DNA of 42,745 bases from NCBI GenBank assembly GCA_011322445.1, contig DRMV01000017.1, positions 1 through 42,745 on the forward strand, written 5' to 3'. Each line of letters starts with the position of its first letter. The first letter of the stretch is position 1. A program made the position numbers and the translations under genes. Origin of the DNA: Chloroflexota bacterium. GTDB taxonomy: Bacteria; Chloroflexota; Anaerolineae; Anaerolineales; DRMV01. This document shows, piece by piece, positions 40,745 to 42,745 of the stretch. The notes beneath the pieces were generated by a model, which was not told where the DNA came from, did no database searches, and saw only the letters and a program-made list of their open reading frames with translations.

Positions 40745-41602
40745 TCAGGTTTCCTCAAGAGAGGAAGCCGTCGCGCCTGAAAGGGGGTTTTCGGCCGCGG
40801 GGTAAGAACCCAACAATTTGAGGAAAGCCGCTCGTGCCAGCAGCCCCACCAACGCTTCTGCACAGCGCGGCTCCTGCCATGCCCCTTCGCAATCCAGGTA
40901 AAAAACGTAATGCCACGGGCGGTTGCGCCGGGGACGGCTTTCCAGTTTGGTGAGGTTGAGGCCGCGGCGGGCAAATTCGTTCAGGCAAGCCACCAGCGCG
41001 CCGGGGCGGTGCGGTACGGCAAAGACCAGCGAGGTTTTCATGTGCGGCTGAGGTTCGGCTTCCTCATAGCCCACAACGAAGAAACGGGTGACATTCCAGG
41101 CTCGGTCTTGCACATCGGCCGCCAGCACCTGCAAGCCATAGATTTCAGCAGCCAGACGGCTGGCGAGCACCGCCACGCCAGGCTGGGGCTTCGCGGCAAG
41201 GTCTTTGGCGCTACCGGCGGTATCATACCACGGCTCGGCGCGCCAGCCATGGGCTGCAAGGTAATCTTCACACTGGGCAAGGGCTTGCGGGTGTGAGCGC
41301 ACGGTATGGACGTCTTCCAAACGCGTGCCTTCCGGGGCCATAAGATGGTGGCGCACGGGCAAATACACCTCGCCGCTCACCCGCAAATCGTGCGCCAGCA
41401 GCAGGTCATAGGCTTTGTTGATGGAACCCGCGACTGCATTTTCCACCGGCAACATGCCGTAATCGGCCTGGCCGGATTCCACCGCGGCAAAAATGTCCTC
41501 AAACGTGCGGCACGGCAGGGTTTCGACCGCCTTGCCGAAATGCTGCCGAATGGCCTCTTCAGAATACGCGCCGTGCTCGCCCTGAAAAGCGACGGTGGTC
41601 AT
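40745..41602 (-). CDS. pheA: Prephenate dehydratase
   Basis: Converts prephenate to phenylpyruvate for phenylalanine synthesis. The 285-residue monofunctional form has a catalytic part (~1-180) with [52 protein letters not shown] and NVTRFFVV (the catalytic Thr-Arg-Phe). The C-terminal ACT domain (~190-275) reads [36 protein letters not shown], the phenylalanine-binding ESRP loop, so feedback inhibition is expected. ATG at 41602 overlaps the aroH stop by four bases. Confidence 0.95.
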
Positions 41603-42051
41603 GGGGCTTGCTCCTCGCGCTGCTCGAAAGCGGCCAGTTGCGCGGCAATCCACGCTTCCAGTTCCCCCCAGTTGACCTCTTGCAAGTGAATCTGGTCGGG
41701 GCGCAGTTTGGCCGCTTCGCCGAGGTAAACATGCACGATTTCCTTCTGGCTTTTGGTGGTGTTCCAGTGTATCAGCACCCGCACCACCCGCGGCATCTGG
41801 CCCGGCACGTTCATTTCATGGCCGCAAAGCAGAGGCACCTCGCGCCACCCCAATTGCCGCGCCGCCAGCGCGGGGAATTCCGCGTTCAGGTCGGTGGTAG
41901 TGGTGAGAATCACACTGGCGACATCTTCCGCCTGAATGCCGTTGACGTGAATCATCAACGCCAGCAGGCGGCGGGTTTCGCGCAAAATGGCTTCGGCGGT
42001 ATTTTCCGGCACGGTGGTGGCACCGCGCACGCCACGGCACATCAAGGGCAT
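41599..42051 (-). CDS. aroH: Chorismate mutase, AroH type
   Basis: Converts chorismate to prephenate. A 150-residue AroH-class (trimeric pseudo-alpha/beta) enzyme rather than the helical AroQ class. The active-site start [43 protein letters not shown] (Glu and Arg of the pocket) and [13 protein letters not shown] are characteristic. Members are typical of Bacillus, cyanobacteria and Chloroflexota. ATG at 42051 follows GGAGGAAACC. Coupled directly to pheA, it makes a two-step phenylalanine unit. Confidence 0.94.
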
Positions 42052-42069: not shown

Positions 42070-42558
42070 TCAGGCTGGCCCAAGCACCTGAAAGCGCACC
42101 ACCGGAATGGCACGGCTCAGGGTTTCCAGGCTTTCTTCGCTGCCATCGTAATCGTAATGCAGCAGGTGGGTGAGTTCCTTCAGCGCACGCGGATGCTCGC
42201 GGGCATATTGCCGGAAGCGCGTCAGCGCCTCGTCATGGGGCAGCCGCGCCGCGCGGGCGCGATAACGCCGCCTGCCCACCCTAATGACCACCTCGGGCGT
42301 GTGCATCACATTGCGGAACCAGTCGGAACGCTCGCCAAAGCCGGAACCGACCACATAGGCCAGCGGGTCGGTTTCTTTCAGCATGACTTCCAGCACAGCC
42401 TGCCGCACCTTGCCGCTCTTGCGCCCAATGTGGTTGAGGAGCAAAAACCGCTCACCCAGCAGAAAGCCCAGCCCCAGGCGATACAGCCAAATCGGCAGCC
42501 TCCAGGGAATGGCCTTCAGGCCACGCGGCGGTGCAGGGGGTTGCGGTTGTGTGCCCAT
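42070..42558 (-). CDS. Deazaflavin (F420)-dependent nitroreductase-family protein
   Basis: A 162-residue protein of the DDN/FDOR-B group. The split-barrel cofactor part has LLNHIGRKSGKVRQAVLEVML, YVVGSGFGERSDWFRNVMHTPEV, RVGRRRYRARAARLP and a C-terminal helix. Such proteins use F420 to reduce quinones or other acceptors; F420 use is inferred from family. Three consecutive ATGs follow AAGGAG; the third (42558) has the best spacing of six bases and was chosen over 42564. It is first in a run with aroH 18 bases on. Confidence 0.87.
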   Translation of the reverse strand: MGTQPQPPAPPRGLKAIPWRLPIWLYRLGLGFLLGERFLLLNHIGRKSGKVRQAVLEVMLKETDPLAYVVGSGFGERSDWFRNVMHTPEVVIRVGRRRYRARAARLPHDEALTRFRQYAREHPRALKELTHLLHYDYDGSEESLETLSRAIPVVRFQVLGPA

Positions 42559-42617
42559 CATCATCTCCTTGAGGAACGCGCACCGGCTATGCTTGTTATA
42601 TGGGGAGCACTCAAATG

Positions 42618-42645
42618 TTGTAGAAAAGGAGTCCTCTGGTATAAC
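42618..42645 (+). promoter_or_regulatory. Promoter of the right-edge gene
   Basis: TTGTAG (42618-42623) and extended -10 TGGTATAAC (42637-42645) are 16 bases apart. The predicted start is near 42652, inside the hairpin. Confidence 0.6.
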
Positions 42646-42684
42646 AGAGATAAACGCATCATCTATCTCTCACCAAAGGACTCC
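42628..42684 (+). repeat. Two-step leader hairpin hiding the ribosome site
   Basis: GGAGTCCTCTGGT (42628-42640) pairs with ACCAAAGGACTCC (42672-42684) at 12 of 13 positions, and AGAGATA (42646-42652) pairs with TATCTCT (42664-42670). The AAAGGA ribosome site lies in the right outer arm. Confidence 0.75.
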
Positions 42685-42687
42685 CAA

Positions 42688-42745
42688 ATGAAGTCTACCA
42701 CAGAACGCATCACCCAAATCAAAGACCTCATCGTTGCTGAACTTC
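42688..42745 (+). CDS. Start of an unidentified gene at the right edge (possibly mobile)
   Basis: ATG at 42688 opens a frame whose first 19 codons read MKSTTERITQIKDLIVAEL before the window ends. AAAGGA lies nine bases upstream. The flanking 130 bases are AT-richer than the rest, and the leader has a promoter and hairpin arranged like those of insertion-sequence transposase genes. Nineteen residues are not enough to name a family; transposase is a guess from the leader. Confidence 0.5.
   Translation, partial: MKSTTERITQIKDLIVAEL

Follow-up and report, generated by a model that had tools for sequence, protein, structure and literature searches.

We describe the left end of an ISKra4-family insertion sequence that closes the window, a Chloroflexota contig (C17) analysed over its whole 42,745 nucleotides, and whose transposase leader is likely to make the origin of an RNA decide whether transposase is translated. 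RNA polymerase reading into the element from outside would yield an RNA carrying both arms of an inverted repeat; this read-through RNA would fold at 42628-42684 and hide the ribosome site. RNA from the element's own promoter, placed inside the left arm, would begin near 42652 without that arm and be translated, such that transposase would stay low when neighbouring transcription enters the element. The features concerned are as follows.

42595..42602, no strand: target duplication of 8 bp, GTTATATG, bordering the left end and matching the right-end flank on contig C14 (L050).
42603..42745, plus strand: left end of the ISKra4-family insertion sequence, truncated by the contig end (copies of 99-100% identity elsewhere in the genome).
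42603..42629, plus strand: left terminal inverted repeat GGGAGCACTCAAATGTTGTAGAAAAGG, from comparison of the element ends; the right end is GGGAGCACTCATAAGTTGTAGAATCAGG.
42618..42623, plus strand: predicted -35 element TTGTAG, inside the terminal repeat (weight-matrix scan).
42628..42652, plus strand: left arm of the leader hairpin, overlapping the promoter spacer and -10 element (folding, repeat finder).
42640..42645, plus strand: predicted extended -10 element TGG-TATAAC, with a predicted start near 42652 (weight-matrix scan; resembles host -10 boxes).
42664..42684, plus strand: right arm of the leader hairpin, including the ribosome site (folding, repeat finder).
42675..42680, plus strand: Shine-Dalgarno-like AAAGGA, ending 7 nt ahead of the ATG at 42688-42690 (sequence).
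42688..42745, plus strand: start of the transposase gene (MKSTTERITQIKDLIVAEL...), truncated (reading frame; N-terminus lengthened by the copy on contig C41).

The hairpin is a fold prediction. Folding 42604-42745 gives three stems with 19 pairs in total, spanning 42628-42684 (42628-42635/42677-42684, 8 bp; 42637-42640/42672-42675, 4 bp; 42646-42652/42664-42670, 7 bp), at a minimum free energy (MFE) of -33.7 kcal/mol (z -2.99; 1 of 200 shuffles equally good), and a repeat finder returned the same 24-nt arm pair. Shuffling the upstream part alone, with the start region left unchanged, reached the MFE in 2 of 2000 cases and the predicted opening cost of the start region (15.0 kcal/mol; shuffle mean 5.4) likewise in 2 of 2000. 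AAAGGA is paired apart from one A, and both arms are kept in all 15 genome copies of the left end. The initial annotation had drawn this same fold over AAAGGA, and its arms, coordinates and buried site all reappear in our predictions. An Rfam search (E up to 1) returned a single microRNA match; it is weak, lies on the opposite strand and scores far under the cut-off, and we reject it as chance.

A weight-matrix scan, blind to the fold, places the best promoter at TTGTAG-16-TATAAC, with its predicted start near 42652. Because this likely promoter sits inside the left arm, the element's own RNA is predicted to lose that arm: folded from 42652 onward, it lacks this structure (-6.0 kcal/mol, z +0.78), and the predicted opening cost of the start region falls from 15.0 kcal/mol in read-through RNA to 4.2 in the own transcript. 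The ribosome site is, by prediction, paired in read-through RNA and free in own-promoter RNA, as expected of an anti-read-through leader; the start site and the effects on translation and transposition are inferred.

To place this leader among related elements we turned to relatives of the transposase C-terminus, which occur in 71 of 396 class genomes (E 1e-8 or better). The survey took in 72 relative loci (L088-L119, L120-L159), of which 43 were used, giving 44 leaders with our own element; 25 loci without a convincing terminal repeat pair or with a broken or cut gene were excluded, as were four duplicates (L122, L125, L155, L158). Starts were set from the reading frame and a Shine-Dalgarno match, five of them by eye (L104, L109, L126, L128, L130). 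A hairpin was called significant at a leader MFE p up to 0.05 against shuffles; the call rests on MFE because shuffles, too, often pair the start region with upstream bases, and by such pairing alone no more than 5 of the 15 hairpin leaders reach p 0.05. These 15 of 44 leaders (our own, L089, L093, L099, L116, L128, L131, L133, L134, L135, L138, L139, L145, L147 and L149) compare with about 2 expected by chance (binomial 1.8e-9); counted by sequence cluster, the hairpin is present in 14 of 34 (3.3e-10). Between lineages the arm sequences are unrelated, for example GGAGTCCT/AGGACTCC in our element, GGACCTCC/GGAGGTCC in L093, GAAGATTTTCC/GGAAAATCTTC in L099, GGCAATCACCT/AGGTGATTGCC in L135 and GTTGAGGGTCA/TGACCCTCAAC in L149, whose arms hide the AUG; across lineages the buried part is either the Shine-Dalgarno sequence or the AUG. 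This recurrence under unrelated sequences argues for selection. A few compensatory changes occur among relatives; for example, across L138, L139 and L147 both sides changed in 4 of 29 pairs, and 8 of the same 29 are broken in one of the three. By eye, L088, one of the loci excluded for want of a terminal repeat, seems to keep an inner stem resembling that of L131; one end of the L131 locus (genome G165, contig C14) in turn resembles plasmid DNA annotated with IS630-family transposase genes.

The promoter predictions follow a similar course in these relatives. The opening cost drops by at least 4 kcal/mol in the predicted own transcript of 13 of the 15 hairpin leaders (exceptions L093 and L116), its mean going from 15.7 in the full leader to 6.0 in the own transcript, versus 5.4 and 4.0 for the 29 other leaders. 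Predicted starts lie -3 to +10 nt from the end of the left arm in 13 of 15 versus 4.5 expected, for an interval picked post hoc, and the promoter score exceeds shuffles (p up to 0.05) in 11 of 15. The mean arm fraction removed is 0.89 versus 0.77 for a uniformly placed start, a small difference. The read-through design suggested in the initial annotation gains indirect support from these models, with a hairpin that recurs under unrelated sequences and a predicted promoter inside the left arm.

In a protein tree (5 rows left out) hairpins fill four well supported lineages, L100 excepted, and the hairpin elements L116 and L145 are placed among hairpin-free relatives. Relatives whose transposase is split over two frames are nearly hairpin-free (1 of 19 versus 12 of 16 single-frame elements; Fisher 4.2e-5, with 35 of 44 elements classed); this link follows deep clades, so these are not 35 independent observations. 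Many two-frame elements have purine-rich leaders, several of them unstructured. In two-frame relatives such as L091, L095, L101, L110 and L112, the frame of the C-terminus is +1 relative to the first; a passage of PMC3942029 marks a predicted -1 shift for the ISMich2 group.

Judged on its sequence, the cut-off gene encodes the transposase of an ISKra4-family insertion sequence that the genome carries in multiple copies. The right edge of the window falls where assembly stopped inside the repeat: the G+C-rich 2.63-Mb genome has the last 143 bases (42603 on) at 14 further places, almost all of them contig ends. The 15 copies are identical over comparable stretches except for two substitutions on C41, and the DNA upstream of 42603 is different at each. 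Via the terminal repeat GGGAGCACTCATAAGTTGTAGAATCAGG the right end was located at 14 contig ends, of which 13 were analysed (C5, C7, C9, C12, C14, C15, C20, C27, C33, C34, C39 and two on C40; the C53 end was left out). Both element ends were thereby recovered, with near-identical terminal repeats, and 12 of the 13 right junctions have 8-9 bp in common with a left junction, as target duplications; a search of the assembly did not turn up the element's middle part. Short repeats resembling miniature inverted-repeat transposable elements share the same terminal repeat at L023:2142-2434 (contig C39) and at 33 places in genome G002; the stretches viewed hold no transposase, and some G002 copies end close to TATAAT boxes.

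The C41 copy lengthens the transposase N-terminus to 37 aa, and the C27 copy, which reaches deepest into the right part, encodes an 84-aa C-terminus. This C-terminus matches positions 350-422 of the 422-position ISKra4 model NF033572 (E 2.6e-26); its 92.7 bits fall short of the cut-off of 205 set for the whole protein, as a fragment would be expected to; the next model is ISLre2 (E 2.6e-5). Since only these two models match, membership in the IS4 family, that of IS10 and IS50, was rejected. The first 36 aa match only within their own genome among the 396 class genomes, with no Pfam family above cut-off, no NCBIfam family and no plasmid match, and no relative of the C-terminus was confirmed in viral contigs. 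The element is assigned to ISKra4 (p-MULT 4) by homology to the family model, by its terminal inverted repeats and by its short target duplications; insertion upstream of promoters fits as well, being described for sigma-A promoters and some members in PMC3942029. The initial annotation had guessed that the gene may be part of an insertion element, and the multi-copy ends, terminal repeats (42603..42629 and the matching right end), target duplications and ISKra4 C-terminus bear this out; the same multi-copy ends, inverted repeats and duplications exclude the non-mobile housekeeping gene named there as a refuting case. The protein it left to be identified is, as read on C27, of the ISKra4 family.

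The right ends also point to where the element lands. An outward -10-like hexamer starts 28-42 bases from 12 of 13 right ends, so that the end lies about 40 bp ahead of a -10 box of the host, versus a background of 3 of 1040 windows in the same flanks and 1 of 15 at left ends. GG precedes TA in 8 of 12 of these host boxes, similar to the element's own TGG-TATAAC. This suggests oriented insertion upstream of host promoters, with the right end facing them. According to passages of PMC3942029, the insertions of ISLre2/TnGBS and some ISKra4-group elements keep a fixed distance from sigma-A promoters, on their upstream side. The ISKra4 elements shown there have promoters on both sides, whereas ours faces them almost always with its right end and hardly ever with its left. 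Among the 43 relatives, with too-short flanks left uncounted, a right-side box at 28-42 bases accompanies 11 of 29 hairpin-free versus 0 of 13 hairpin elements, and a left-side box 5 of 28 versus 4 of 14, and the hairpin relatives examined thus lack the right-end orientation seen in our element. Perhaps, though we find the idea rather doubtful as a whole, each ISKra4/p-MULT 4 lineage holds its transposase down in one of two ways, either through a read-through-sensing leader hairpin whose left arm contains the promoter or through a gene split over two frames behind an unstructured leader, and with fixed-distance landing upstream of host promoters the element would pick a defined transcriptional context and sense read-through there.

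At the window copy itself, the neighbour on the left is:

42070..42564, minus strand: gene of the F420H2-dependent quinone reductase family, directed away from the element (open reading frame, family match).

Further left, on the minus strand of 40748-42051, lies an aromatic amino acid pair, a prephenate dehydratase gene beside a type I chorismate mutase gene. As the left neighbour is directed away, read-through from it is not expected here, and the design would matter more elsewhere or after future moves. This is one of several points that weigh against a leader guarding against read-through. The score of our own promoter is marginal (p 0.065 versus shuffles), and a strict consensus promoter scan found none at the leader. 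In L100, which is fairly closely related, no hairpin reaches significance, and the best-scoring promoter of L093 would keep the hairpin in the transcript. Furthermore, none of five outgroup leaders (L161, L162, L163, L165, L166) goes beyond shuffles (MFE p 0.07 to 0.78); these come from plasmid relatives with annotated starts in Thiodictyon, Pseudanabaena, Tolypothrix and Calothrix (ISCasp2 and ISCasp3). Kept out of that comparison were L164, for which no terminal repeat turned up, L168, whose start is uncertain, L167, and L160, which is ISKpn19 and has passenger genes ahead of its transposase.

The hairpin-retaining promoter of L093 would suit another arrangement, in which the native transcript starts upstream of 42628 and holds the hairpin as well, making it a constant throttle that an antisense RNA might open, as reported for ISPpu9, whose own mRNA has a leader fold according to the part of PMC8450116 consulted; the start at 42652 is, after all, a predicted one. 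We nevertheless consider a throttle unlikely: the best-scoring promoter drops the left arm here and in most hairpin relatives, and since the sequence before 42603 varies per copy, such a start would need a host site or a promoter in the first 25 bases. The inverted repeat lies beside the terminal repeat, overlapping it at the inner edge, as a DNA-level feature such as a subterminal transposase binding site might, with the RNA fold incidental. The arms, however, are wholly different among relatives while their pairing with the start region persists, and by eye no arm copy is present at the right end in the stretch read on C27, which leaves this explanation very improbable. Least probable of all is a chance fold; several relatives have leaders without a hairpin, but the 2 of 2000 shuffles and the recurrence in 15 of 44 leaders speak against it. 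A leader that distinguishes read-through RNA from the element's own transcript continues to be the reading that we favour.

In the open-access literature searched, no such leader is reported for the ISKra4 family, and we consider the family-wide hairpin pattern modestly interesting. It offers a way of spotting such leaders in unannotated elements, together with a simple reporter test.

In the transposase leaders of IS10 and IS50, read-through RNA folds over the ribosome site, and RNA from the element's own promoter lacks the left arm. Our element resembles them in that its predicted fold hides the ribosome site only in read-through RNA, and differs in that IS10 and IS50 are IS4-family elements and its transposase is of the ISKra4 family; the likeness drawn in the initial annotation thus holds for the strategy, by prediction, and not for the transposase. 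The passages of PMC5006887 and PMC4265352 examined do not describe this leader of IS10 and IS50. The IS200 leader, in the sections of PMC3196728 consulted, likewise has a stem-loop covering the ribosome binding site; impinging transcripts are terminated by a further stem-loop of IS200, whereas no terminator-like site was found here on the plus strand of 42400-42745, and IS200 lacks the terminal inverted repeats that our element has. ISPpu9 is a further parallel: part of PMC8450116 describes a 5' leader fold thought to bury the transposase ribosome site, with an antisense RNA as its proposed opener, but in the native mRNA, while ours is predicted in read-through RNA only. With the ISKra4 (p-MULT 4) group, as far as the parts of PMC3942029 consulted describe it, our element has in common the transposase family, the terminal repeats and the fixed-distance insertion upstream of sigma-A promoters; the word 'hairpin' is absent from the main text of that paper. 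Hiding a ribosome site from read-through RNA is already known from IS10, IS50 and, in part, IS200, and the predicted leader described here places it in a different family, so that the classical way in which IS10 and IS50 limit themselves would extend to the Mutator-like (ISKra4) elements.
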